From contig JAFGLJ010000058.1 in the NCBI GenBank assembly GCA_016928075.1, positions 1-64,000 on the forward strand: a stretch of DNA of 64,000 bases, written 5' to 3'. Shown one piece after another: positions 29,407 through 43,760 of this stretch. Each line of letters opens with the position of its first letter. The stretch's first letter is position 1. The notes beneath the pieces were generated by a model. That model searched no databases. It was not told the DNA's origin and was given only the letters and a program-made list of their open reading frames with translations. Made by a program: the position numbers and the translations under genes. Source of the DNA: Bacteroidales bacterium (GTDB lineage Bacteria; Bacteroidota; Bacteroidia; Bacteroidales; VadinHA17).

Positions 29407-29533
29407 TCATATTTCCGAAATGATGGTAAACCCGCCTATGCTGGAGTGGGCCTCAGCCCCAGCTTATTTTTTCATTTGGTGATAATAATTTATTTGGATA
29501 TTTTCACGCCTGATTATTTTGAAAATAGCAATA

Positions 29534-30469
29534 ATGGAAAAACATATCTCGATTGGTGTTGATATAGGCGGTAGTCATATAACATGTGCTGCTGTTGATC
29601 TGGGAAAAAGAGAAATTAAAAGGGACACCCTTGCTGAAAGGCCTGTAGATAATAAAGGCACGGCAGATGAAATAATCAGCACCTGGTCGGAAGCAATTGC
29701 TGAAACACTTGAAAAAGAAGGCAGGGAGAGGATGAAAGGAATTGGTTTTGCCATGCCCGGACCATTCGATTATGTAAACGGGATATGCCTCATCAAGGGA
29801 GTACCTAAATACGAGAAGCTTTACGGTACCAGTGTTGGTAAGGCTGTATCACAGGCACTTGATTTATCCCCTGAAATTCCTGTGAGATTTATGAATGATG
29901 CATCATCATTTGCTGTAGGGGAAGCCTGGGCAGGAAAAGCAGCAAACAGCCACAGGTCAATGGCAATAACGTTGGGTACAGGACTGGGATCCGCATTTGT
30001 GGCTGACAAAGTGCCGGTAGTTACCGGTGACCTGGTTCCTGATCTCGGATGTGTTTATCATATCAGCTTCAAAGATGGGATAGCTGACGATTATTTCAGT
30101 ACACGCTGGTTTACAAAAAGGTATGAAGAGATAACAGGCAAAAGCAGCAGCGGAGTTAAAGACATTGCTGAAGCGGCCAAGTCGGACAATCGCGTAAGAA
30201 ATATCTTCATTGAATTCGGGACGTCCCTGGCTTCATTCCTTTCTCCTTATCTTATTAATTTCGGAGCTGAGGTGCTGGTCATGGGCGGTAATATTTCCCG
30301 TGCATATAATCTATTCGGTCCTTCACTGGAGGAGGAAATGAAAAAACAAAATTGCAGTACAATACCACTGCTGTCAGAGCTAAAGGAGGATGCAGCCCTG
30401 TTAGGCAGTGCTTATCTTCTCGATGATTATTTCTGGAGCTCCGTACGGGGATCACTTCAATATATGTAA
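29534..30469 (+). CDS. ROK family sugar kinase-like protein
   Basis: A 311-aa protein of the ROK family, started at ATG 29534 (a TTG at 29519 gives five more residues). The ATP site GVDIGGSHITCAAVD (residues 8-22), the catalytic Asp in FMNDASSFAVGEAW and the TLGTGLGSAF loop are present. The ROK zinc site (CxCGxxGCxE after a conserved His) is absent; the region reads GDLVPDLGCVYHIS instead. It begins a three-gene operon with an MFS sugar transporter and a mannose-6-phosphate-isomerase-like protein, so a kinase for mannose, glucose or a similar hexose is likely. Confidence 0.88.
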   Translation: MEKHISIGVDIGGSHITCAAVDLGKREIKRDTLAERPVDNKGTADEIISTWSEAIAETLEKEGRERMKGIGFAMPGPFDYVNGICLIKGVPKYEKLYGTSVGKAVSQALDLSPEIPVRFMNDASSFAVGEAWAGKAANSHRSMAITLGTGLGSAFVADKVPVVTGDLVPDLGCVYHISFKDGIADDYFSTRWFTKRYEEITGKSSSGVKDIAEAAKSDNRVRNIFIEFGTSLASFLSPYLINFGAEVLVMGGNISRAYNLFGPSLEEEMKKQNCSTIPLLSELKEDAALLGSAYLLDDYFWSSVRGSLQYM

Positions 30470-30486: not shown

Positions 30487-31668
30487 ATGAGTTCAAAAAT
30501 CAATTTATACAGGGTAGTTCCTGTTTTGATGTCCTTTTTTGTAATGAGTTTTGTCGACCTGGTAGGCATTGGAGTCGACCGGGTTAGCCTTGATATGGAC
30601 CTGAGTCCTACGGTGGCACAGCTTATCCCCTCAGCTGCATTCCTATGGTTTTTCCTTCTTTCAGTGCCTTTTGGCATTCTTCAATCAAGATTGGGAAAGA
30701 GGTTTATGCTTAACATTGGAATGCTTGTGACTGCTTTAGGATTACTTGTTCCTGCATTAGGATTATTTATTCCTTATTTCTATTCTTTTGCAATGGTCCT
30801 GATAGGATTTGCACTTCTTGGAATAGGTAACACTATTGTACAGGTATCTGCAAATCCTCTACTGGTTGATGTTGTACCGGGTAACAGGGCATCAAGCTTT
30901 TTGAGCTTTTCACAGTTTATCAAATCAATAGGCTCAATGCTGGGAGCCCCACTTGCTGCTGTTTTTGCATCCTGGTTTGGCGACTGGAAAGTATTGTTCC
31001 TTGTATTTGGTATTGTATCTGTCATAACGGTTGTATGGCTCGGATCGGTCAGTATTGATGAAACAAGGGAAGGTGAAATTAAAGCATCTTTTGCATCTGC
31101 TTTTAAACTGCTTGGCAATAAATTTGTACTGTTGATGGTTCTTGCAATTTTTGTGGTGGTTGGAGTTGATGTGGGTTTTAATTCTAACTCCGGGCAGTTT
31201 TTCATGAACAGCTTCGGACTGGAACAAACAGCTGCGGAGTCAGGAAGAAGTGTATACTTCTTCGGAAAAATGCTGGGCACTTTCGGTGGTGCATTATTGC
31301 TGACAAGAGTGGCCTCACGAAAATTTTACGTATGGTCCACGATATTTGGCATTTTATGTTTTGCTGCAATATTACTTTTGCGTTCAGAAGCTTCAGCATG
31401 GGCCTTGACCTTTCTTATCGGGCTTGCCATCGCAAATATATTCCCTCTGGTGTTTTCAATAGCTGTTGAAGAATATCCCGGCAGGAAAAATGAAATTTCT
31501 GGCCTTATGATGATGGCCATATCAGGTGGTGCGGTCATACCCCTTTTAATGGGTTGGATAACAGATATAAGCACTAATCTTATTGGAATGTCAGTTCTCC
31601 TGCTATGTATGTTTTACCTCCTGGCTGCGGCTGTGTATGCAATCAGATTCCATCAGATGCGCAGCTAG
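30487..31668 (+). CDS. MFS transporter, probable sugar uptake
   Basis: A 393-aa major facilitator with about twelve transmembrane segments, resembling the FucP-type sugar:proton symporters of Bacteroidetes. Recognisable parts include FGILQSRLGKRFML in the loop between helices 2 and 3 (the MFS signature) and GNTIVQVSANPLLVDVVPG, an NPL-containing helix frequent in FucP-like proteins. It is 17 bases after the ROK gene and its stop codon directly adjoins the ATG of the next gene (31669), strong evidence for one operon bringing in a hexose. Confidence 0.88.
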   Translation: MSSKINLYRVVPVLMSFFVMSFVDLVGIGVDRVSLDMDLSPTVAQLIPSAAFLWFFLLSVPFGILQSRLGKRFMLNIGMLVTALGLLVPALGLFIPYFYSFAMVLIGFALLGIGNTIVQVSANPLLVDVVPGNRASSFLSFSQFIKSIGSMLGAPLAAVFASWFGDWKVLFLVFGIVSVITVVWLGSVSIDETREGEIKASFASAFKLLGNKFVLLMVLAIFVVVGVDVGFNSNSGQFFMNSFGLEQTAAESGRSVYFFGKMLGTFGGALLLTRVASRKFYVWSTIFGILCFAAILLLRSEASAWALTFLIGLAIANIFPLVFSIAVEEYPGRKNEISGLMMMAISGGAVIPLLMGWITDISTNLIGMSVLLLCMFYLLAAAVYAIRFHQMRS

Positions 31669-33435
31669 ATGAAGGATACTATACGAAATACTTCACAGTA
31701 TATTCTGCCCCTGAAGAAAGATCATATTGAACCGGGAAATTATGATATATATCCCGTATTCAGTATTCTGGAGGGAAAGATTTTTAGCTCTCTGTCAGAT
31801 CTGGTGTCAATGTTGCCCGGAAGTGGTACTGTCATTATTGATGGCTTTGCAGGTATACTTTTTGAACAGGTCGTTGACGACATTAAGAAAATCTTTAAAG
31901 AGCTACATAAGTCATTACCCGAGTTTATAAATATAGAAGATGCATTATTAAGCAGTACTGAAATTAAAGATGCAGTTTTGAAATTTACCGGTGGTGATGA
32001 TCCGCTTTTTGGCACCAGAACCAGTCTGGACATCCGTGAGTTCTTTAACGGTGATGCAATTAATGAATTGAGAAAAGAGGGCGGTAATGAATTCAGAATA
32101 ATATATGGACCCGGCGCTTCCCTTGTCGATATAAATGCATTCCTGGTTTATATTGATCTGCCAAAAAACGAAGTGCAGTTCAGGTCAAGAGCCGGTTTAA
32201 AAACACATATAGGGACACCCCCGGTTAATCCAAAATATGATTATAAAAGGAATTATTTTGTTGACTGGGTTGTTCTCCGGAAACATATGCAAGATATACT
32301 GGCTTATATTGACCTGTTTGTTGACGGTCAGAGGCCCGGAAAAATAACATTCATAAAAGGGGATGATCTCCGTAATACCCTCAGTGAAATCTCAAGGAAT
32401 GTTTTCAGGGTGCGCCCCTGGTTTGAACCTGGCCCATGGGGCGGGTCATGGCTGAAAGATAATATAAATGGGCTGAATAAGGAGGTTCCTAACTATGCAT
32501 GGTCATTTGAGCTCATAAGCCCTGAAAATGGGTTGATACTTGAAAGCGGTGGACTGATGCTCGAGCTCTCGTTTGACATGCTGATGATACAGGAATCTCC
32601 GAATATACTGGGCGACTGCCATGAAGTGTATGGGCAGGAGTTTCCCATACGCTTCGATTACCTCGATACATATAATGGTGGCAATCTATCAGTTCAGTGC
32701 CATCCCCGACCACAATATATCAGAAATGAATTCGGTGAGAATTTCACGCAGGAGGAATCATACTATATAATGGATACAAAGGACGATGCTGTTGTTTTCC
32801 TGGGTTTTAATGAGAATATTGATCCTGAAATGTTCAGGAATGAGCTTGAGCGGAGCTACGATGAATCAATTCCCGTAAATATAGATAAATATGTCCAGAC
32901 CCACCCGGCTTCCAGGCATGACCTTTTCCTGATACCTTATGGAACAATACACGGGTCGGGCAGGAATAACCTGGTGCTTGAGATCAGTTCCACACCTTAT
33001 ATATTTACTTTTAAGATGTATGACTGGCTAAGACCTGACCTTGATGGAAAACCAAGATCGCTGAATATTGACAGGGGTATGGAAAACGTTTATTTCGAAA
33101 GAAAAGGAAAAGCAGTTAAAGATGAACTGATCTGCAGACCGGTACTCATTGACAGGGGTGATGACTGGGAACTTGAGCATCTTAAAACACATCCTACCCA
33201 TCTTTATGATGTTCACAGGTACAAATTTAGTAGCAGGGTTTTGATAAGGACGGAGAATAAGTGCCATGTACTCAACCTGGTTGAAGGAGAGAGTATTATG
33301 GTTGAGACACTCAACGGTATCACTATGAATATAAACTATGCTGAAACTTTTATTTTACCTGCTGCAGCAAGAGAGTATATCCTGATTAACCAATCAGAGA
33401 AGCCGGCAGTGGTTGTGAAAGCTTTTGTTAAATAA
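31669..33435 (+). CDS. Class I mannose-6-phosphate isomerase-like protein with N-terminal extension
   Basis: A 588-aa protein. Residues about 230-588 resemble class I phosphomannose isomerases: the metal ligands can be matched to Gln and His in LSVQCHPRPQY, Glu in QEESYYIMD and His in YGTIHGSGRNN, and a cupin-like C-terminus closes the protein. The first 230 residues are an added region not present in ordinary ManA; it has a strand-turn pattern (VIIDGFAGILFEQVVDDIKK) reminiscent of a P-loop kinase fold without a clear P-loop. Encoded directly after the transporter, it should interconvert the imported hexose phosphate. Confidence 0.8.
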   Translation: MKDTIRNTSQYILPLKKDHIEPGNYDIYPVFSILEGKIFSSLSDLVSMLPGSGTVIIDGFAGILFEQVVDDIKKIFKELHKSLPEFINIEDALLSSTEIKDAVLKFTGGDDPLFGTRTSLDIREFFNGDAINELRKEGGNEFRIIYGPGASLVDINAFLVYIDLPKNEVQFRSRAGLKTHIGTPPVNPKYDYKRNYFVDWVVLRKHMQDILAYIDLFVDGQRPGKITFIKGDDLRNTLSEISRNVFRVRPWFEPGPWGGSWLKDNINGLNKEVPNYAWSFELISPENGLILESGGLMLELSFDMLMIQESPNILGDCHEVYGQEFPIRFDYLDTYNGGNLSVQCHPRPQYIRNEFGENFTQEESYYIMDTKDDAVVFLGFNENIDPEMFRNELERSYDESIPVNIDKYVQTHPASRHDLFLIPYGTIHGSGRNNLVLEISSTPYIFTFKMYDWLRPDLDGKPRSLNIDRGMENVYFERKGKAVKDELICRPVLIDRGDDWELEHLKTHPTHLYDVHRYKFSSRVLIRTENKCHVLNLVEGESIMVETLNGITMNINYAETFILPAAAREYILINQSEKPAVVVKAFVK

Positions 33436-33787: not shown

Positions 33788-35056
33788 ATGGACATTATTA
33801 AAACAGGCAGGAGAGATTTTATTAAGAAATCTGCTACTGCTGCATTTGCCTTTACCATTATACCGAGACATGTACTTGGGGGAAAGGGATTTACCGCTCC
33901 CAGCGATCAGCTCACGAAAGCGATTATCGGGGTAGGTGGCATGGGGCGTGGTCATATACCATATGAAGCAACGCGGGTCCTTGCGGTATGCGATGTTGAT
34001 AAAGATCACCTGAACCTTGCACTGGAGCAGGCAGGTCCGGGAGTAGACGCCTACCATGACTTCAGGGATGTGCTCGCACGGCCGGATATTGACATAGTTC
34101 ATATTGCAACACCTCCGCACTGGCATGGTATAATGGCTAAAATGGCTGCAGAAGCAGGAAAGGACATCTGGTGCGAGAAGCCGATGACCCGTACTATTGG
34201 TGAAGGGATAGAAGTTGTGAGGGCCGTAAAAAAGTATGGTCGTATGTTCAGGCTTAATACCTGGTTCAGGTTTAAAGACCAGTTCTATGGTCTGGGCACT
34301 ACTGTTAAGCCGTTGAAAAAACTTATCGATAGTGGCGCATTGGGCTGGCCTCTGAAAGTTACAATAAGTGGAATTACAGGTTTTGACTGGAAATTTTACT
34401 GGAGCGGTGAGCATAACCTTAAACCCATGCCTGTTCCTGACAACCTTGATTATGATTTCTGGCTTGGGCCAGCTCCGTATAAACCATATAACCCCGAACG
34501 AGTGCATTCTAAATTTCGTGGTTACTGGGATTATGACGGGGGAGGACTGGGCGATATGGGACAGCACTATCTCGATCCTGTTCAATATATGCTTGGGAAG
34601 GATAATACCAGCCCCGTGTATATAGAAGTGGATGCTCCTCAGCAACACTATGATGCTGTGGGGTCGTGGAGGAGGATTGAATATACTTATGACGACGGTT
34701 GCAAAATAGTGCTTGATGGTGCAAATGCTGATACTGATGCGGCATATGTTGAAGGGCCTTATGGAAAAATATACAGGGGTTTCCGGTCAAACATACCTGA
34801 TCTTCAAAAACTGATTGATAGCCAGCCTGAACCTGAACCACAGGTTACAATATTCAGTGATTCTGTAAAAACAAGAAATAAGTTCGCCCTGAATGAAGAG
34901 AATGGTCACCGGTCAGCAACAATAGTCAACCTTGGAGTTATTGCCGTACGACTGGGTCGTAACTTAACCTATGATCCTGTCAAACAAAGGTTTGTTGATG
35001 ATGAAGGGGCTAATAGATTGATTTATCAACCAATGAGAGGTCCCTGGACAATTTAA
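33788..35056 (+). CDS. Tat-exported Gfo/Idh/MocA family oxidoreductase
   Basis: A 422-aa NAD(P)-dependent dehydrogenase. The N-terminus carries a twin-arginine signal ([20 protein letters not shown]), indicating export of the folded cofactor-bound enzyme. The Rossmann motif is [10 protein letters not shown] and the family EKP motif reads WCEKPMTR. Members of this family next to DUF1080 genes take part in 3-keto-glycoside metabolism in Bacteroides, where they oxidise or reduce C3 of glucosides. The next gene, 12 bases on, encodes a DUF1080 protein, so the pair is probably one operon. Confidence 0.9.
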
Positions 35057-35067
35057 TATGCCATGCT

Positions 35068-37650
35068 ATGAAAAACACTTTAATTATATCATTCCTTATA
35101 TTTACTTCAATTATCGGGTATACCCAGGATATTAGAACCACAGAGACAAAAGTGGCCGATCTTCTCGCCAGGATGCCGGTTAATAATACTGATGATCTCA
35201 AAAAACAGATGCAGGAAATGAGTATCCTGGAACCCCGGGGAAGGCGTCAAATAACTGAAATGGTTGTGCCGCCAGGAACCGGAGATGATACAAGGGCCAG
35301 GTTTGCCATCGAGAGTTATTCACGATACCTTTCAGAATATGGTCACGAAAATGAAAAATATCAGTGGGAATCAGAGTGCATTGATGCCGTTCTGGCTTCA
35401 GGCTATCCGATGGTCAGATCCTTCTTCCTTTCCCAGCTAAGGTACATAGGATCAGAAAAGTCTGTGGAGTTTGCCTCGGGCTTCTTAACTGATGAGGATA
35501 TGTGTGAATCTGCTGTCTCTGTTATCTCTTCCTGCGATTCTCATGAGAAGGAAGATATACTGGCTATGAGCCTCCAGATAAAAACATTGCCATGTGTGGA
35601 ATCAATCATAAATACCCTGGCAATGATGAAGTCAGATAAGGCTATAAAAGAATATCCATACTGGTATCTTGCGGGTGATAAAGATCTTAAAGCAGCTGCT
35701 CTTAATGCTATGGCTGAAAGTGCACATGCAAATGTCTATAAAATGCTGGCTTCTGCTGCCGATGATGTCTCTTATAATTGGGATCCTACCGGTGCAACAG
35801 CCTCTCTGGTGCAATATGCCAGAAATATCGGGGATAAAGGTGAGGTTATTGCAATGGAGAAAATATGCAGGGATGTATTAACTAAAGGTGCTGTGCAATA
35901 TAAAACTGCCGCTCTCGAAGCATTGGTACATTATATGGGATACGAGGCCATGGAATACCTCCTTACAGAATTCAGGGAAGGAGACCTGGAGTACAGGAAA
36001 GCAATTCTTAACCTGGCAGGAGATATCCCGGGCAGGGCTGCAACCCGTAAATGGATTGTTTTCCTGCAAGCTGTAGATAATACCAGGAAAGCAGAGATTA
36101 TCGATATGTTGGGTAAAAGAGGCGACCTGCTGGCTGCCCCCATCATAAAGGATGCTCTTTTCTCGGCTTCACCTGAGACCAGGTCAGCTGCAGCCCTGTC
36201 TCTGTCAAGGTTGGAGGGCAGAGAATCAGTTCCTGAGCTTATCGATTATATCAGATCTTATGAAACAGCTGATGATCAGATAGCAGGTTACCAGGCCCTC
36301 CAGACAGTAGTCGATACAAAGAGAAGGGATATGATAGCTGACGCTCTTGAAGGATCAGGAAATCATACAAAAGCAACCATGCTTATATTAATTTCCATGG
36401 GAGGTGAAAACAGGTTTTTCAACTCAATCCTTAATTATACTTCATCGCCCGACCCAAAGCTCCGCTCAATTGCATTTACTGAACTAAAATCAGTGGCTGA
36501 TCCGGTAAACATGGAACAACTGATCAACCTTCTTACCATAACTTCCGAAAAATCTGAGGTTGAGCATGTACAGGAGGCACTTGTAATTGCCGCAAACGAA
36601 ATAAGTGATGAAAAGGTAAAAGCCTCAATGATTATTAAAGGAATGGAAGATTCAGAACAAAAAGAAAAATTCTTGCCCGTGCTTGCCCAGATCGGCGGAG
36701 AGGAAGCCCTGCAGTCCGTAAACCAGCTTTTCGTAAAAGGAAATGCAGAGATGAGATCCCTGGCATACAAAACTTTATCAGACTGGTCAGGATATGAAGC
36801 CTCATATGTTCTGTATGAAATATGTGCATCAGGAAATAAAAATTATTCTGACAGGGCTTTCAATGATTATGTTGACAAAGTCTATAAGGCAGGGATTGAT
36901 GATGCCCAGAAGATAAAATTGCTGGAGAAAATCTTACCCTATGCATTGACCGATACCCAGAAAAAGATGCTGGAAGACAGGATAAATGCTTTAAAAGAAT
37001 CACTTACTTCTGAAATAAAGGAAAATGTTTCCAGTGAATCTCAAAAATATATTTTGCCTGAAGAGGAAAAAGCTGATGGTTTTGTTGCAATGTTCGATGG
37101 GATTAGCCTGGATAACTGGACTGGTAACAAAGAAGCTTATATTGTAGAAGATGGCATGATAATGGTAAAACCATTAGAAGGCAACGGGGGAAATTTATAT
37201 ACAGAGGATGAATACAGTGATTTTATCCTTAGATTTGAATTTCAACTTACACCCGGGGCCAATAACGGGCTGGGTATTCGTGCACCTTTGACCGGAGATG
37301 CCGCATATGTGGGAATGGAGCTGCAGATCCTTGATAATACGGCTGAAATATATGCAAACCTTCAGCCTTACCAGTACCATGGGTCAGTATATGGGGTGAT
37401 ACCTGCAAAAAGAGGATTTCTGAAACCCGTTGGAGAATGGAATGAGCAGGAAGTGATTGTGGAAGGCAGCAGTATAAAGGTGGTGCTCAACGGAACAGTA
37501 ATAGTGGATGGAGATATATCTCATGCAGTGGAAAATGGTACACTGGATAAACAGGATCACCCGGGGCTAAAGCGCGGCAGCGGACATATTGGCTTCCTGG
37601 GTCACGGATCAGTAGTAAAATTCAGAAATATAAGAATTAAAGAACTTTAG
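35068..37650 (+). CDS. HEAT-repeat protein with C-terminal 3-keto-disaccharide hydrolase (DUF1080) domain
   Basis: A secreted 860-aa protein: signal peptide (1-19, ending IIGYTQ), a long helical region of HEAT-like repeats (about 110-660, for example [20 protein letters not shown]), and a DUF1080 domain (about 670-860) that begins [15 protein letters not shown] and ends [15 protein letters not shown]1080 proteins are reported as lyases or hydrolases of 3-keto-glycosides in the Bacteroides pathway. HEAT arrays probably provide protein or polysaccharide binding. Twelve bases separate it from the Tat-exported oxidoreductase, supporting a shared pathway in the periplasm. Confidence 0.88.
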
Positions 37651-37700
37651 ATAATCACTGTACGTATAAATCTATACATATTCGACTGTAAAGATTAATT

Positions 37701-37749
37701 TCTCATAATATTACACTTGTATATTACACTTTTTGAAAATATTATGAGA
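37701..37749. promoter_or_regulatory. Long inverted repeat with internal direct repeat upstream of the response regulator
   Basis: TCTCATAATATT (37701-37712) is the exact reverse complement of AATATTATGAGA (37738-37749). Within the spacer ATATTACACTT occurs twice with a 13-base period (37708-37718 and 37721-37731). This is operator-like; as a terminator it would lack GC content and a T tract. Confidence 0.45.
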
Positions 37750-37797
37750 TTTACATTATGTTTGGCGGATCAGGCTTAAGCGCAAATACTTGTTGAG

Positions 37798-38154
37798 ATG
37801 AATATACTGGTTTGCGAAGACAATAAACTTTCTTCACTTGTAATATCAACTGTTCTGAAAAGACAGGGTTACGACATTGAAACTGCTTCGGATGGTAATG
37901 AAGCAATAGAAAAGGTTACTAAAGGAAAGCCTGACCTGGTGATTTGTGATATCAATCTTCCTTACCATAGCGGACTGGAATTGGTTAGATACATGCGCAC
38001 TGAACTGCGCAGTGACATACCCGTTATCATTGTGTCTGCCTTTAGTGACCCTCAGGTAAAGAAAGAGGTCATGGAGCTGAGAATTAGTGATTATTTTGTT
38101 AAGCCATTTGATACTGACGACCTTATCAAACGTATTAGATCCCTACTTAAATGA
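37798..38154 (+). CDS. Single-domain response regulator
   Basis: A 118-aa receiver domain with no output domain. Acidic pocket CEDN near the N-terminus, phospho-acceptor Asp in LVICDINLPYHSG (Asp52), Thr/Ser position in VIIVSAFSD and Lys in YFVKPFD (Lys102) are all intact. It could act by protein contact, like CheY or a phosphorelay Spo0F. No kinase gene adjoins it, and the incomplete kinase at 16578 is far away, so its partner is unknown. A distinctive inverted repeat lies just upstream. Confidence 0.93.
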   Translation: MNILVCEDNKLSSLVISTVLKRQGYDIETASDGNEAIEKVTKGKPDLVICDINLPYHSGLELVRYMRTELRSDIPVIIVSAFSDPQVKKEVMELRISDYFVKPFDTDDLIKRIRSLLK

Positions 38155-38275
38155 TAGAGGTAATATTTTCTTTACTCACCCCGGTACCGTGTAATCCAGA
38201 ACAAAATTGAATTATAATCCCAATGCTGTGCAAAACATTTGCTTTTTTGTCTTGTATCCCCTTCCCCTGCCGCTA

Positions 38276-38306
38276 TTTGAATATTATAGGTTAATTGGTA
38301 TATTCG
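38276..38306 (+). promoter_or_regulatory. Bacteroidetes-type promoter of the nucleoside-recognition gene
   Basis: TTTG (38276-38279) is followed 19 bases later by TATATTCG (38299-38306), one mismatch from TAnnTTTG. The ATG is 18 bases downstream. Confidence 0.5.
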
Positions 38307-38323
38307 CTGCAAACTCAATTTAG

Positions 38324-39559
38324 ATGGTCCTGAACTATATCTGGATAGCTTTTTTTGTTCTGGCTTTCCTTTTTGCCCTCGGGCAACTGATCTTTACAGG
38401 TAATACACAGGTATTTTCTGACATGGTGAATGAAACATTTTCCAGTGCAAAAACGGGTTTTGAGATTTCACTGGGCCTGACAGGTGTCCTGACTTTATGG
38501 ATGGGACTGATGAAAATAGGTGAAAAAGGAGGATTGGTAAAGATATTATCAAAAGCTATAGGACCGTTCTTCAACCGTATATTTCCAGATCTGCCCAGGG
38601 GGCATCCTGCCTATGGTTCTATTATTATGAACCTGGCTGCTAATATGCTGGGTCTGGATAATGCAGCTACACCCATGGGTCTGAAAGCAATGGGTGAGAT
38701 GCAGGAGGTTAACAGTAATAAAGATACAGCTTCCAACGCGCAGATTATGTTTCTGGTATTGAATACATCGGGATTGACGATCATACCGGTGAGTATCATG
38801 GTTTTCAGGGCTCAGCTCGGGGCCGCCAATCCGGCCGACGTATTTATTCCAATATTGCTCGCCACTTTTTTCTCTACTATTGCAGGATTGGTGGCAGTAT
38901 CCCTGGTACAAAAAATAAAACTCTTTGACAGGGTGGTATTGGCTTACTTGGGCGGGATGACAGCTATTATTATAGGAGTCATCTGGTACTTCAGTACCTT
39001 GCCAAAAGAGGATATAACAAGGATTTCAACCTTTGCTGCCAATTTCATACTGTTTGTTATTATAATTGCTTTCATCGTACTGGGCCTCATAAAAAAAATC
39101 AACGTGTATGAGACTTTTATTGAAGGGGCAAAAGATGGGTTCAAGATTGCTATAAGGATAATTCCCTTTCTGGTTGCTATACTTGTTGCAATTGGTGTCT
39201 TCAGGGCTTCTGGAGCTATGGATATGTTGATAGATGGGTTAAAATACCTACTTGACAGTGCGGGCATAGATACAAAGTTCACCGGAGCATTACCTACTGC
39301 CCTTATGAAACCTCTCAGCGGTGCAGGAGCCAGGGGTATGATGGTTGATGCAATGAGTACTTACGGTGCTGATTCGTTTGTGGGACGGCTGGCCTCTACG
39401 GTGCAGGGAGCAACCGATACCACATTTTATATAATCGCGGTATATTTTGGATCGGTGGGCATAAAAAATACAAGATATGCTGTAACATGTGGACTCATAG
39501 CAGATTTCGCAGGGATAACGGCTGCCATATTTATAGGTTATTTGTTCTTTGCCGGTTGA
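38324..39559 (+). CDS. Nucleoside-recognition (Gate) domain membrane protein, SpmA/SpmB-like
   Basis: A 411-aa polytopic membrane protein. The N-terminal half resembles spore-maturation protein A (GLTGVLTLWMGLMKIGEKGG, then the NAANMLGLDNAATPMG motif close by), and the C-terminal half resembles SpmB (PFLVAILVAIGVFRASGAMD, then GPxGARGMMV-like). A fused SpmA-SpmB form is typical in Bacteroidetes, which do not sporulate, so it is likely a transporter or permease for nucleosides or an unknown ligand. It has its own promoter and is followed by an ApbE gene after 116 bases. Confidence 0.9.
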   Translation: MVLNYIWIAFFVLAFLFALGQLIFTGNTQVFSDMVNETFSSAKTGFEISLGLTGVLTLWMGLMKIGEKGGLVKILSKAIGPFFNRIFPDLPRGHPAYGSIIMNLAANMLGLDNAATPMGLKAMGEMQEVNSNKDTASNAQIMFLVLNTSGLTIIPVSIMVFRAQLGAANPADVFIPILLATFFSTIAGLVAVSLVQKIKLFDRVVLAYLGGMTAIIIGVIWYFSTLPKEDITRISTFAANFILFVIIIAFIVLGLIKKINVYETFIEGAKDGFKIAIRIIPFLVAILVAIGVFRASGAMDMLIDGLKYLLDSAGIDTKFTGALPTALMKPLSGAGARGMMVDAMSTYGADSFVGRLASTVQGATDTTFYIIAVYFGSVGIKNTRYAVTCGLIADFAGITAAIFIGYLFFAG

Positions 39560-39675
39560 GGAAGAGGATTTAAAGATCCGCACCTTCGAAACAAATCAAG
39601 CATACCCCTGAGCAAAGTACATCACATGCAATGATCATTCGCACAGAAATGTGAGTAATACGAAACAATAATATA

Positions 39676-40578
39676 ATGAATACACAGTACAGGAATTTCT
39701 TCTCCATGGGAACGCGGTTGGATGCTGTATTCATTAATGTTAATGAAAAGCATGCCGATAATCTCATTTACCGAATAAAAAATGATCTTAATAAACTTGA
39801 AAATGTATTAAGTATATACAAAACTGATAGTGAACTTTCAATGCTGAACAGGACAGCATATAAAAAGGATACTGCAGTAAGCCCAGATCTTTATGAGGCT
39901 GTACGTTTGTGCCTTGATTATTATAAACTTACCAATGGTGTTTTCGATGCGGGTCGGGCTAAGTTAACAGGCTCATCAGGCAGGGACGGGAGAAATACAC
40001 AAAGGGATAACAGCACTTTAATGGAATCATCCGGTATTGGCCTGGTTGAGATCAATGAAAAGGATAAATCTATAAGATACCATGGCAAAAATGTAAAAAT
40101 AGATTCCGGTGGCTTTGGTAAAGGTTTGGCTATGAAAAAAGTAAAAAATGTTCTAATATCTGAAGGTTTAGGTAATGCGTTGATAAGCTTTGGAGAAAGT
40201 TTGATACTTGCAATGGGTAAACACCCTCATGGTAATTACTGGCCGGTTGCAGTTGAAGGGATCTTTCAGAAACAATCAGTGGCCAGGGTGGCCAGCCTTG
40301 TAGATCAAAGCATTTCGACATCAGGCACAGGATTTGTAGATGTATCGGGGGTTTTCAGGCCGTCTTTTAACATTTTTGACCCCCGTACAGGGAATACGAT
40401 TAATGACCCCATGACAGTGTCTTTTATTTCAGATGATCCAATTGAAGCAGAGATTCTTTCAACCTCTCTTTTGATTGACAGGGGATGTCTTCCTGAAGTA
40501 TTTGATACCTCAGGTAAAGAAGCTTTTGCGGTCATATATGATAACGATATGAATTTTATTGTAAGGGAAATTTTATAA
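39676..40578 (+). CDS. apbE: ApbE-like FAD:protein FMN transferase
   Basis: A 300-aa ApbE-family protein that would attach FMN covalently to Thr residues of partner flavoproteins using FAD. Motifs: GNTRLD-like SMGTRLDAVF, KIDSGGFGKGLAMKK, STSGTGFVD and FNIFDPRTGN. In the metal site usually read as ADALAT, this protein has AEILST, replacing Asp with Glu. There is no signal peptide or lipobox, unlike many ApbE proteins. It lies before the second keto-glycoside locus (47-base gap to the oxidoreductase), possibly only by proximity. Confidence 0.82.
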   Translation: MNTQYRNFFSMGTRLDAVFINVNEKHADNLIYRIKNDLNKLENVLSIYKTDSELSMLNRTAYKKDTAVSPDLYEAVRLCLDYYKLTNGVFDAGRAKLTGSSGRDGRNTQRDNSTLMESSGIGLVEINEKDKSIRYHGKNVKIDSGGFGKGLAMKKVKNVLISEGLGNALISFGESLILAMGKHPHGNYWPVAVEGIFQKQSVARVASLVDQSISTSGTGFVDVSGVFRPSFNIFDPRTGNTINDPMTVSFISDDPIEAEILSTSLLIDRGCLPEVFDTSGKEAFAVIYDNDMNFIVREIL

Positions 40579-40624
40579 TTCTTACCTTCAGTTTATATTT
40601 ACACATTAACTCAATAATAACCTT

Positions 40625-41881
40625 ATGACCTATAAACAATCCAGAAGGATCTTTCTACAGAAAACAGCCCTTCTTACAGGGGGATTATTCCTGGGATCCC
40701 ATTTCCCGGACATAAGAACCCTGGCCAATGATCAGGAAAATATGGCCAATACTGTAAGGCTGGGCATAATAGGTAGTGGCTCGCGCGGGCAGTACCTCAT
40801 GACACACATAAACCTGATTCCCGGAATTGAGATTGTGGCTGTATGTGATAATTACCAGCCAAACCTGGATAAGGGGGTGGAGATGACCGGGGGTAAAGCT
40901 GAAGCGTTTAATGACTACAGGAAGCTACTTGAGAAAAAAAATATTGACGGGGTAATAATTGCTACCCCTCTCCACCTGCATGCGGTGATTTCAATAGATT
41001 CATTGAAGGCAGGTTTCCATGTATTCTGTGAAAAGGCAATGGCTAAAACACCCGCTGAATGCCTGGCTATGTATAATGCTCAACTGGAGACGGGAAAAAT
41101 ACTGCTTATCGGACATCAGAGAATGTTCAACCCAAGGTACCTGAAAGCTTTTGAGATGATAAACAGGGGACAGCTTGGAGATATTACCCAGATAAGAGCT
41201 TACTGGCACAGAAACAATGACTGGCGCAGGGAGGTTCCCGAAACAGGTCTTGAAAGGGAAATTAACTGGAGGCTTTATTGGGATTATTCCGAAGGCCTGA
41301 TGACTGAATTGGGAAGCCACCAGATCCAGGTAGCGAATTTTATTAAGAAAGATTTTCCGCGAAGGGTAACCGGCACAGGAAGTATTAATTACTGGCACGA
41401 TGGCCGGGAAGTGTTCGACAATGTAAATATGGTATATGAATATTCTGATGGGTCATCACTCATATATGACTCAATGATAAGTAATGCACATTATGGCTAT
41501 GAAGAACAGATAATGGGTCCGAAAGGTACCATGGAGCTTGAAGCGGGCAAAATGTATTCTGAAAATCCCCCTCCGGCACCCGGTATCCTGCAGCTCCTGA
41601 ATAATATAGAGCATGAAATATTTGACCCGCTGCCCCTGGGGGGCAAAAGCTGGATCCCCGAAACAGCAGTAAAAGAAAAGGGGGAATATATTTATGAGGT
41701 TGACCTGGAAGATGATGGAACAGCTCTTGAAATGGAAGGATTTGCACAGATGATAAGAGAAAACCGTCACAGTGATGTCCTCCTCAGGGAAGCTTATTAT
41801 GCTGCTATAGCTGCTCTGCTTGGGAATATGGCAATAAAAAAAGGTGAAGTGGTAACATTCCCTGAAGAATACATTTTATAA
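40625..41881 (+). CDS. Tat-exported Gfo/Idh/MocA family oxidoreductase (second locus)
   Basis: A 418-aa dehydrogenase of the same family as the one at 33788. The Tat signal reads SRRIFLQKTALLTGGLFLG, the Rossmann motif IGSGSRGQYL, and the catalytic region FCEKAMAKTP, in which the usual EKP Pro is Ala. It is followed after 11 bases by a two-helix membrane protein and then a tandem DUF1080 lipoprotein, again giving an oxidoreductase/hydrolase pair. Sequence similarity with the first copy is limited to the family level as far as I can judge, so the two loci probably act on different glycosides. Confidence 0.9.
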   Translation: MTYKQSRRIFLQKTALLTGGLFLGSHFPDIRTLANDQENMANTVRLGIIGSGSRGQYLMTHINLIPGIEIVAVCDNYQPNLDKGVEMTGGKAEAFNDYRKLLEKKNIDGVIIATPLHLHAVISIDSLKAGFHVFCEKAMAKTPAECLAMYNAQLETGKILLIGHQRMFNPRYLKAFEMINRGQLGDITQIRAYWHRNNDWRREVPETGLEREINWRLYWDYSEGLMTELGSHQIQVANFIKKDFPRRVTGTGSINYWHDGREVFDNVNMVYEYSDGSSLIYDSMISNAHYGYEEQIMGPKGTMELEAGKMYSENPPPAPGILQLLNNIEHEIFDPLPLGGKSWIPETAVKEKGEYIYEVDLEDDGTALEMEGFAQMIRENRHSDVLLREAYYAAIAALLGNMAIKKGEVVTFPEEYIL

Positions 41882-41892
41882 AAATTGTAATT

Positions 41893-42135
41893 ATGAAAGA
41901 CCTGGTTATAAAAGGAAAGTGGATAAAAAGAGAACTTATCGTGCTTACAGTGCTCTTTCTTTCCGCGGTAATAATTAATGTTATAGGTATAGTAAAACAT
42001 GATACCCGATGGATTGAGATGCTGAGCCAGCTGCATGTTGTATTTATTTTAACCCTGTTATTATATGCGCTCCTATGGCTGGTGAGGTTAATTATTTTCG
42101 TCGTAATACTTCCATTCAGAAAAAAAAACAAGTAA
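41893..42135 (+). CDS. Small two-helix membrane protein
   Basis: An 80-aa protein with two transmembrane segments (about residues 14-33 and 47-75) separated by a short loop, and charged ends (RKKNK at the C-terminus). I do not recognise the family. It sits between the oxidoreductase and the DUF1080 lipoprotein; its stop TAA overlaps the following ATG by one base (TAATG at 42133-42137), so translational coupling is likely. It could anchor or assist the exported enzymes, but this is inference. Confidence 0.65.
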   Translation: MKDLVIKGKWIKRELIVLTVLFLSAVIINVIGIVKHDTRWIEMLSQLHVVFILTLLLYALLWLVRLIIFVVILPFRKKNK

Positions 42136-43460
42136 TGAAAAAGTCAAAAATACTGGTATTTGCAGCGCTTTTATCAGTAATCACCTCCTGCAGGAACGAG
42201 GAAACCTGGATCGATCTTATCGGGGACAACCTGGATAATTGGGAACAGCTTAACGGAAATGCAGATTATCAACTCGTCAATGGCACAATTGAAGGCTCGA
42301 GCGTACTTAATTCACCAAATTCATTCCTGTGCACAAAAGATCATTATGGTGATTTCATTCTTGAATTTGATGTACTGGTTGATCCGGAAATGAATTCGGG
42401 TGTTCAGATAAGGAGCCATAGTCTGCCTGAATACCAGAATGGGAGGGTACATGGTTACCAGGTTGAAGTTGACCCGACTGACAGGGCATGGTCGGGAGGT
42501 ATATATGATGAAGCCCGGCGTATGTGGTTGTATCCCCTTGACCGCAATCCCGGAGGTAAGAAAGCATTTATTAATGGTGAATTCAATCATTTCAGGGTTG
42601 AAGCTGTCGGAAACAGCATACGGACATGGTGCAATGGGATTCCATGCTCCGACCTTATTGATGCCATGACTGCATCCGGATTTATTGGCCTGCAGGTGCA
42701 CAGCATAGGAAATGACAGCTCAAAAGTGGGCTTAAAAGTTATATGGAAAAATATTAAGATTATTACTGACAACCCGGCATCATATGTCACCCCTTACAAT
42801 AAGGATATTCCCCAGAACAGTTTTCTGGTAAATGAATTGAGTGTCAGGGAGAAAGAAGAAGGATGGAGATTGTTGTTTGATGGTAGCACCAGTACAGGCT
42901 GGCGGTCAGTGGATAGTACCTTATTCCCGGAGAAAGAGTGGGTTATTGAAGATGGCGAGTTGAAAAGACTTGGTTCAGGGGGTGATATAATCACGGATGA
43001 TATTTTCACTGATTTTGAACTTATTCTTGACTTTAAATACCGTAAGGGGAGTAACAGCGGAATAAAATACTTTATCAGCGGTGACAAGGAGAATGACCCA
43101 TATTATAATATTGGATGTGAATACCAGATAAGAAACAGAAACGCCTCTGAACCTGAACTTCCCGGCAGGGAACGGATAGGTGGCCTGTATGATCTTATTG
43201 AACCTTCAAACCCGAGGGACAATGGTCCTGACATATGGAACAGAGCGAGGATTGTGGTTAAAGACCGTAACGTGGAACACTGGCTTAATAACCAGATGAC
43301 TGTTGAATACGAAAGAGGTACTGAACAATGGAAAGAAATGGTTGCCGGCAGTAAATTCAGGGATGTACCGTGTTTCGGTGAAGCTGAAACAGGTCATATA
43401 TTGTTACAGGATCATGGTACTGAAGTGTCATTCAGAAGTATCAAAATAAAAGAGCTATAA
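42135..43460 (+). CDS. Lipoprotein with two tandem DUF1080 (3-keto-disaccharide hydrolase) domains
   Basis: A 441-aa lipoprotein when started at ATG 42135 (an earlier in-frame ATG at 42075 lies inside the upstream gene). Signal ends LLSVITSC, lipidated Cys. Domain 1 (about 25-215) has GDNLDNWEQL and ILEFDVLVDPEMNSGVQIRS; domain 2 (about 240-441) has LLFDGSTSTGWRSV and LILDFKYRKGSNSGIKYF, both in the DUF1080 pattern, ending VSFRSIKIKEL as in the 860-aa protein. It should act on 3-keto-glycosides at the cell surface or periplasm, together with the exported oxidoreductase. Confidence 0.88.
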   Translation: MKKSKILVFAALLSVITSCRNEETWIDLIGDNLDNWEQLNGNADYQLVNGTIEGSSVLNSPNSFLCTKDHYGDFILEFDVLVDPEMNSGVQIRSHSLPEYQNGRVHGYQVEVDPTDRAWSGGIYDEARRMWLYPLDRNPGGKKAFINGEFNHFRVEAVGNSIRTWCNGIPCSDLIDAMTASGFIGLQVHSIGNDSSKVGLKVIWKNIKIITDNPASYVTPYNKDIPQNSFLVNELSVREKEEGWRLLFDGSTSTGWRSVDSTLFPEKEWVIEDGELKRLGSGGDIITDDIFTDFELILDFKYRKGSNSGIKYFISGDKENDPYYNIGCEYQIRNRNASEPELPGRERIGGLYDLIEPSNPRDNGPDIWNRARIVVKDRNVEHWLNNQMTVEYERGTEQWKEMVAGSKFRDVPCFGEAETGHILLQDHGTEVSFRSIKIKEL

Positions 43461-43760
43461 ACTACCATTATCAAAACCAATAGTCGGGATTTCATGTAGA
43501 AGTGTACCATGGACTCAGGCAGTCTTGCGGTGCTGCATTTGTATAACTTCCTGGAGGCTATACGTAAAGACACAAAACTTCATTCACCGGTGGATGACAG
43601 AGCGGTAAGTACACCTTTGTTACCCTGGTAATATCTCACATAATGTGGGAAGAATGCTCCGGATAAATGTAAAGACGGGAGACATTATAAAGGACGAGGG
43701 AGCAAAGTCACAAATTAGCCGTGATTATGAACCCGGCCGGGAACTGAGGTTTTAAGGTTG
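43461..43760. other. Gap of 300 bases without a recognised gene
   Basis: Between convergent genes. It contains a 40-codon ATG frame (43508-43630) of no recognisable family and a CCGGCCGG palindrome near 43733. No terminator hairpin with T tract was found. Confidence 0.5.

Follow-up and report, generated by a model that had tools for sequence, protein, structure and literature searches.

An ApbE-like protein paired with an exported Gfo/Idh/MocA oxidoreductase near 3-keto-glycoside loci: a candidate for covalent flavinylation

Cleavage of glycosides in steps, by way of a 3-keto intermediate, is used by Bacteroides and has been proposed for other bacteria (PMC9007349, PMC11300592). The glycoside 3-dehydrogenase BT2158 of Bacteroides thetaiotaomicron is described as periplasmic (PMC11300592), and two other oxidoreductases of the Gfo/Idh/MocA family, GFOR and AAOR, are described as carrying signals for twin-arginine translocation (Tat) (PMC4628093). 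We analysed a stretch of 64,000 nucleotides from a Bacteroidales bacterium (VadinHA17; contig JAFGLJ010000058.1), called the window below, which carries two loci of related type. Tat-signal Gfo/Idh/MocA proteins, Gfo1 and Gfo2, are encoded in locus 1 and locus 2 respectively, each in the vicinity of a DUF1080 protein, and Gfo2 is preceded by an ApbE-like protein. From the recurrent company of these two genes and an ApbE acceptor motif in relatives of Gfo2, we infer that Gfo2-type enzymes probably carry a covalently attached flavin, through which electrons pass between bound nicotinamide adenine dinucleotide, NAD(H), and the cell envelope.

A first-pass annotation of positions 33788-43460 had reported two Tat-signal Gfo/Idh/MocA dehydrogenases, a HEAT array fused to DUF1080, a lipoprotein with tandem DUF1080 domains and a two-helix membrane protein. 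These were confirmed by Pfam matches, signal sequences and hydropathy, and domains and synteny support a probable role in exported 3-keto-glycoside chemistry. Three features had also been taken for variants that look not to have been described in detail. Export of a folded dehydrogenase is already known from BT2158 (PMC11300592) and from the Tat signals of GFOR and AAOR (PMC4628093), a relative matching the tandem form over its full length has been solved (PDB 4jqt) and the combination of HEAT with DUF1080 is common in the family. The two-locus finding is thus partly ordinary, and it is the ApbE-Gfo2 pair that deserves attention.

By analogy with characterised relatives, a Tat-exported, NAD-binding dehydrogenase would oxidise the glycoside at C3 and a DUF1080 protein would then cleave the glycosidic bond of the 3-keto intermediate. 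How NAD(P) is recycled outside the cytoplasm had been rightly raised as an open question, to which a possible answer comes from the pairing of ApbE with Gfo2. Lacking a signal peptide, the ApbE-like protein would attach flavin mononucleotide (FMN) to Gfo2 ahead of Tat export, at Ser342 in a loop taken to be flexible, and a small two-helix protein, TM2, would anchor Gfo2 to the membrane. Hydride would then move between bound NAD(H) and the tethered FMN, in either direction, and the exported Gfo2 would thereby trade electrons with a carrier in the envelope. It is the electron balance of NAD-dependent steps outside the cytoplasm that this flavin reading addresses. If it is true, a covalently flavinylated Gfo/Idh/MocA protein would be a new class of ApbE substrate and would give 3-keto-glycoside chemistry outside the cytoplasm an electron outlet.

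Association of Gfo2 with ApbE

Gfo1 and Gfo2 match the GFO_IDH_MocA profile (E 5.2e-20 and 3.1e-19) and both have an NAD-binding Rossmann domain above the Pfam cut-off, which for Gfo2 is also supported by the fold of its model. The N-termini are of twin-arginine type (GRRDFIKK in Gfo1 and SRRIFLQK in Gfo2) and the genome encodes TatC (contig C31); both proteins are predicted Tat substrates. The Gfo2 model has a predicted local distance difference test (pLDDT) score of 80.9 and its predicted fold resembles 1h6d (Z 32.7, root-mean-square deviation (rmsd) 3.2, 342 residues) and 5a02 (Z 32.3, rmsd 2.8, 321 residues). Comparison with GH109 gave Z 32.8 and rmsd 3.0 over 334 residues of 6t2b, the phmmer match being limited to residues 43-192 of Gfo2.

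Named genomes were scanned with a Gfo2 alignment and the best 80 loci among the matches listed were divided into the 26 best (L142-L167) and the other 54. This boundary was set after the locus maps had been viewed, at a drop in the Gfo2-model score from 343 (L167) to 258 (L169). Two ApbE models were used, the first built from Gfo2-linked ApbE and the second canonical. Together they found ApbE in 21 of the 26 best loci, compared with 3/54 of the others; the latter count was 2/54 with the first model and became three (L181, L182, L188) after the second. TM2 matches were seen in 18 of the 26 and DUF1080 in 10, compared with none of the 54 for either. The five best loci without ApbE are L153, where the ApbE side lies at a contig end, L158, L161, L162 and L164, in the last of which no gene model for Gfo2 exceeded 300 bits. 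Hosts with both Gfo2 and ApbE include Bacteroides xylanisolvens XB1A, B. oleiciplenus YIT 12058, Dysgonomonas, Stygiobacter, Balneolaceae and Armatimonadetes. Depending on lineage, ApbE precedes Gfo2 or follows either TM2 or DUF1080, and this varying order argues against mere inheritance of a single arrangement.

The association was seen again in a phylum sample of 395 genomes, where ApbE was in view for 10 of 11 Gfo2 orthologues. One of these, L248, is the Stygiobacter locus L142 and was not counted as a new case, leaving 9/10 new; the lone miss, L258, is a truncated copy and was left out of the site counts. L301 and L302 were also excluded from counts, as they repeat L271 and L273. Other neighbours of the scanned Gfo2 genes include SusD, MFS, GH2, GH94, a hybrid two-component regulator and housekeeping genes. 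An additional signal-less Gfo of about 348 amino acids adjoins ApbE and Gfo2 in L251 and L254-L256.

The company of the two genes has to be weighed against a simpler explanation, that these are ordinary redox-neutral 3-keto-glycoside loci in which bound NAD is recycled in situ by re-reduction of the 3-keto sugar and ApbE is a passenger. GFOR-type enzymes are described as carrying out oxidation and reduction on one bound cofactor (PMC4628093), DgpA assays were supplied with 3-oxo-glucose (PMC8563793), and Gfo1, in an operon of its own without ApbE, fits such a scheme well. Against it, ApbE keeps company with Gfo2 through the reorderings described above. Taken with the motif evidence given below, we regard the redox-neutral explanation as unlikely for Gfo2.

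Acceptor motif and the window pair

The motif of ApbE acceptors is D-x-x-[ST]-G-A-[ST] (PMC12052999). A comparison of nine more distant Gfo2-like proteins had been aimed at a Gfo2-specific site and revealed D-G-V-[SA]-G-A-T instead, in six of the nine. D-[GA]-V-[ST]-G-A-[ST] was then seen in all 12 proteins examined next, L243-L247 plus seven that a second search had added. Across the 21 distant proteins, 14 in the first set and the seven new ones, 18 have D-[GA]-V-[STA]-G-A-[ST], 17 of them in the strict form, and 12 of the 18 were inspected only once the pattern had been noticed. As background, the strict motif occurs in seven of 1,910 collected open reading frames of at least 100 amino acids, and five of the seven are proteins of this same distant set. 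In a quick tree from which the motif region was left out, the 18 carriers, here called the motif clade, fall on one side of a branch with a support of 99; the Bacteroidota-type Gfo2 rows stand apart and three Armatimonadota-type Gfo2 rows lie closer to the motif clade. Other Gfo2-like proteins, several of them from Acidobacteriota, have different GAT or GAS segments and no strict motif.

Eleven motif-clade loci were seen with a wide view, and 10 of them include the tandem DUF1080 gene. ApbE was found somewhere in all 11 motif-clade genomes searched, and in two genomes (G390 and G485) it abuts the motif-bearing gene. The families of these two genomes were then sampled, f45 (the 30 best loci, 43 of 294 genomes having a match) and f52 (20/20 among 204). 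Of the f45 loci, 27/30 have ApbE directly adjacent, as do all 20 f52 loci, and DUF1080 lies within the 1.5-kb view in 26/30 f45 loci. The acceptor Ser or Thr, the Asp and the Ala of the motif are present in 50/50 proteins, a count that includes L306 and L336 (repeats of L274 and L273). The Gly is present in 43/50, and in seven f45 proteins Ser or Ala replaces it. A twin-arginine signal was seen in 49/50 of these proteins and a hydrophobic N-terminus in 43 of 47 ApbE neighbours. As judged from these signals, ApbE and its acceptor are both exported in the f45/f52 arrangement. Across L306-L335, the 30 loci from one family, ApbE, the motif-bearing Gfo and tandem DUF1080 mostly adjoin one another.

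Several of the clade results weigh against the flavin reading. The tree does not establish a single exclusive group made up of Gfo2 plus the motif clade. Three of the 21 distant proteins (L259, L261, L262) have no motif, and no ApbE or DUF1080 is in view of them. DUF1080 was found within 1.5 kb in 0/20 f52 loci, and the genomes within f45 and f52 are related, so that each count covers events that are not independent of one another. Of the 11 wide motif-clade loci, which come from the phylum sample, only two show ApbE; the other nine are what the redox-neutral explanation would lead one to expect. Conservation of an ApbE acceptor motif in the motif clade is not, and for this clade the flavin hypothesis is likely.

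The proteins from ApbE-linked Gfo2 loci have a less canonical sequence at the site homologous to the motif. It reads [GA]-G-x-[ST]-W, with Ser or Thr in 35/38, and in the three Armatimonadota-type Gfo2 (LDAGAT, LDAQAT and LDSQAT) the Thr is shifted one column on. The window Gfo2 has GGKS here, ending in Ser342, and in the model the surrounding residues 336-350 form the sole stretch with pLDDT below 50 outside the N-terminus, suggesting a mobile loop. However, three residues of the motif are missing around GGKS, namely the Ala, the Asp at -6 and the first Ser/Thr. The window Gfo2 has no [ST]GA[ST] anywhere and so does not match D-x-x-[ST]-G-A-[ST], and its alignment with the motif was interpreted after the fact.

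The window ApbE-like protein scores 129.6 bits against a family cut-off of 25.6. Its AlphaFold model (pLDDT 89.4) aligns with 4xdt over 287 residues (Z 31.0, rmsd 2.6) and is predicted to be a full ApbE fold. In the active site the catalytic Ser is kept, the His is replaced by Asn and the Asp by Glu; as the conserved Ser/His/Asp set is not complete, the protein is called only ‘ApbE-like’. Thirty-five ApbE proteins from Gfo loci, two of which belong to the control set, were compared, with residue roles from PMC12052999 except for that of a Thr, which is our own reading of the family. Among the 35 neighbours, the Ser is present in all, the Thr in 34 and the His in 30, Asn replaces the His in four and Glu replaces the Asp in 30. 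A strongly hydrophobic N-terminus, as judged by hydropathy from the start of the longest frame, was seen in one of the 35. The second, canonical ApbE of the genome differs from the Gfo-linked proteins in having a hydrophobic N-terminus. The Asn and Glu of the window protein weigh further against the flavin reading, and transferase activity of Vibrio cholerae ApbE drops when the His is changed (PMC12052999). The envelope carrier for Gfo2 electrons is a postulated one.

The altered active site and GGKS in place of DGVSGAT would suit an explanation in which the motif clade is indeed flavinylated but the window branch has lost or changed this trait, the window ApbE-like protein acting as a chaperone or other nucleotide enzyme for Gfo2. 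We think this somewhat doubtful. The catalytic Ser and the Thr are retained almost throughout the ApbE neighbours, the ApbE fold is predicted to be intact, Ser or Thr is kept at the Gfo2 site and the ApbE gene ends only 46 bases before Gfo2. The flavin hypothesis is plausible for the window Gfo2, with chances that are even or slightly better.

A broader proposal, to which we give even chances, is that these proteins form an enzyme class of exported Gfo/Idh/MocA oxidoreductases with covalent FMN on a mobile loop by the NAD site, installed by a partner ApbE. One branch would use exported ApbE and DGV[ST]GAT. The window branch would use cytosolic Glu-type ApbE and x-G-x-[ST]-W, with Tat export of the finished enzyme. 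In both, the flavin would link 3-keto-glycoside chemistry to the respiratory chain.

Other acceptors in the window were considered. TM2, the tandem DUF1080 protein and Gfo1 were ruled out, [ST]GA[ST] being absent from them. The HEAT array has TGAT at residues 241-244, where 12 of 25 rows in an alignment show [ST]GA[ST] and row L108 is blank. It was set aside because the local ApbE is signal-less, unlike the HEAT protein with its Sec-type signal. A co-change of the ApbE Asp/Glu with an acceptor-site Asp was not relied on, as cases are few and many Glu-type partners have Asp at -8.

Gene layout and history of the two loci

The features are collected in Table 1. The ApbE-like, Gate, response regulator, ROK, MFS and ManA-like genes and the Gfo3 remnant had been missing from the first-pass annotation.

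Table 1. Features in and around the two loci, in positions of the 64-kb window.
Feature	Position	Strand	Evidence or remark
ROK-family sugar kinase	29519..30469	+	PF00480 E 6.6e-23; kept 5' of locus 1
MFS sugar transporter, gluP/fucP-like	30487..31668	+	PF07690 E 6e-36; kept 5' gene of locus 1
ManA-like protein, 588 aa (amino acids)	31669..33435	+	PDB 1qwr E 1.5e-9
Gfo1, Tat-signal Gfo/Idh/MocA dehydrogenase of locus 1, 422 aa	33788..35056	+	PF01408, PF19051, RRDF
HEAT array fused to one DUF1080, 860 aa, Sec-type N-terminus	35068..37650	+	PF06439 (37078-37641)
Response regulator	37798-38154		
Gate-domain membrane protein	38324-39559		
ApbE-like protein, no signal peptide, proposed flavinylating partner of Gfo2	39676..40578	+	PF02424 E 2e-37
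Gfo2, Tat-signal Gfo/Idh/MocA oxidoreductase, 418 aa, proposed flavinylated	40625..41881	+	Pfam, model
Gfo2 residues 336-350, low-confidence loop with proposed acceptor Ser342 (codon 41648-41650)	41630..41674	+	
TM2, 80-aa two-helix membrane protein, proposed anchor	41893..42135	+	two hydropathy peaks
Tandem DUF1080 lipoprotein	42135..43460	+	PF06439 E 2.4e-80, two stretches; 4jqt E 3.1e-136
Gfo3 remnant, C-terminal portion split over two frames (43503-43619, 43609-43746)	43503..43746	+	

PF06439, the DUF1080 family, has five stretches in four genes of the genome, and three of the five are those of the HEAT fusion and the tandem gene (143.6 and 269.4 bits; Pfam cut-off 26.8). In the HEAT fusion the domain occupies residues 671-858 (E 9.6e-42), C-terminal to the repeats. 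Gfo1 lies directly 5' of the HEAT gene in 21 of 26 HEAT loci of relatives; of the other five, three are cut by a contig end, one has Gfo1 two genes off and one is without Gfo1. The ROK kinase and MFS transporter occur together in 18/26, the matches of the window transporter to the gluP and fucP models falling under the cut-offs of those models. The ManA-like gene stands at this upstream place only in the window's genus (G002 and G003) among the 26 loci. Its similarity to mannose-6-phosphate isomerase is weak, and a Pfam scan at E 0.01 gave no match. In locus L081 a sulfatase takes its place, and a GH29-like protein and a sulfatase are neighbours of HEAT loci elsewhere.

Nineteen of the 26 HEAT proteins are 1,084-1,140 amino acids long, and the only long relative scanned, L069 (1,132 amino acids), has two DUF1080 stretches after the HEAT array. 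The HEAT protein of the window and of its congener G002 has one. HEAT matches without DUF1080, in frames of about 690 amino acids, were seen in some relatives. In the other congener, G003, the HEAT protein (L068:6681-8822) stops before any DUF1080, and its Gfo1 stays 86.5% identical. The EKP, D256 and H260 of Gfo1 are invariant in an alignment of six sequences. Locus 1 reads as a conserved sugar operon, with loss of DUF1080 domains in the window's genus.

The first-pass annotation had treated each locus as a dehydrogenase paired with a DUF1080 protein. This does not hold for locus 2, where Gfo3 is a remnant and Gfo2 goes with ApbE and TM2. In both congeners the order is Gate, ApbE, Gfo2, TM2, tandem DUF1080, Gfo3, and Gfo3 is intact. 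In the window Gfo3 is frameshifted, its two frames aligning to residues 361-399 (64% identity) and 397-442 (57%) of the G002 protein. No closer copy was found elsewhere in the 75.7%-complete assembly, other matches being about 31% identical or Gfo1 and Gfo2 themselves. G002 also carries four extra genes between the response regulator and Gate. Judged by their annotated relatives, three are of YaiO/TPR, SPOR/HEAT and GT2 type; the fourth encodes a 929-amino-acid protein. The two window loci lie so close because these genes are absent from the interval searched (38154-38324).

The likely start of the tandem DUF1080 gene gives a lipobox-type signal (MKKSKILVFAALLSVITSC), and its ATG overlaps the stop codon of TM2; an alternative start at 42075 runs into the preceding gene. 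The match to 4jqt covers the mature length (residues 23-441 of 441). Alignments read by eye gave NSG, ExQ, LYD and QDHG as segments common to solved PF06439 members, and all four are kept in tandem domain 2. Domain 1 is without QDHG and the HEAT fusion has NNG, YG and LGHG.

The frameshift in Gfo3, with no closer copy in the incomplete assembly, raises the question of whether locus 2 is in decay, with little function left to it in the window genome. This is improbable, given that the window tandem DUF1080 and Gfo2 (69.5% and 81.3% identical to those of G003) are no more diverged than the G002 copies (65.8% and 81.1%). As part of the overall explanation favoured here, locus 2 is on balance a damaged set in which the tandem DUF1080 is kept, Gfo3 is a remnant and Gfo2 has its own redox module of ApbE and TM2.

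Comparison with described systems

The BT2156-BT2160 genes of B. thetaiotaomicron, described as including the dehydrogenase BT2158 and the 3-keto hydrolase BT2157, resemble the window in joining an exported Gfo/Idh/MocA protein to a DUF1080 partner (PMC9007349, PMC11300592). The window differs in its HEAT fusion and in its ApbE/TM2 module, the latter as seen from the window side of the comparison. Gfo1 (159.7 bits) and Gfo2 (80.8 bits) are not members of the BT2158 family (BT_2158_fam, NF058561), for which the cut-off is 750 bits. The best PDB match of Gfo1 is 8tdf, labelled ‘Dehydrogenase’; 8tdf and 8tda are, we take it, structures of the BT2156-BT2160 pathway. The tandem protein has the two-domain DUF1080 architecture of 4jqt, itself annotated only as a putative glycosyl hydrolase.

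Among the papers listed in literature searches, none joined ApbE with DUF1080 and none, judged by title, ApbE with Gfo/Idh/MocA, the latter being a weak negative since the slash in the family name is unsearchable. ‘Gfo’ is absent from the main text of PMC8238504, PMC11334425 and PMC12052999, and ‘MocA’ from the latter two. The flavinylation survey is described as leaving out components without a signal peptide (PMC8238504), and a branch with cytosolic ApbE could therefore have been missed.

Zymomonas GFOR and Caulobacter AAOR are, like Gfo2, Gfo/Idh/MocA enzymes with Tat signals, and the Gfo2 model is similar in fold (1h6d, 5a02). They differ from the proposed Gfo2 in that the available part of PMC4628093 mentions no covalent flavin for them. 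With the proteins flavinylated by ApbE (NqrC, RnfG, DUF2271, DUF3570, FMN_red and Flavodoxin_4) the motif clade has in common the motif, an extracytosolic redox setting and, in part, an apbE neighbour. The proposed acceptor, at a site that is divergent in the window, differs from all of these in being a Rossmann-type Gfo/Idh/MocA protein.

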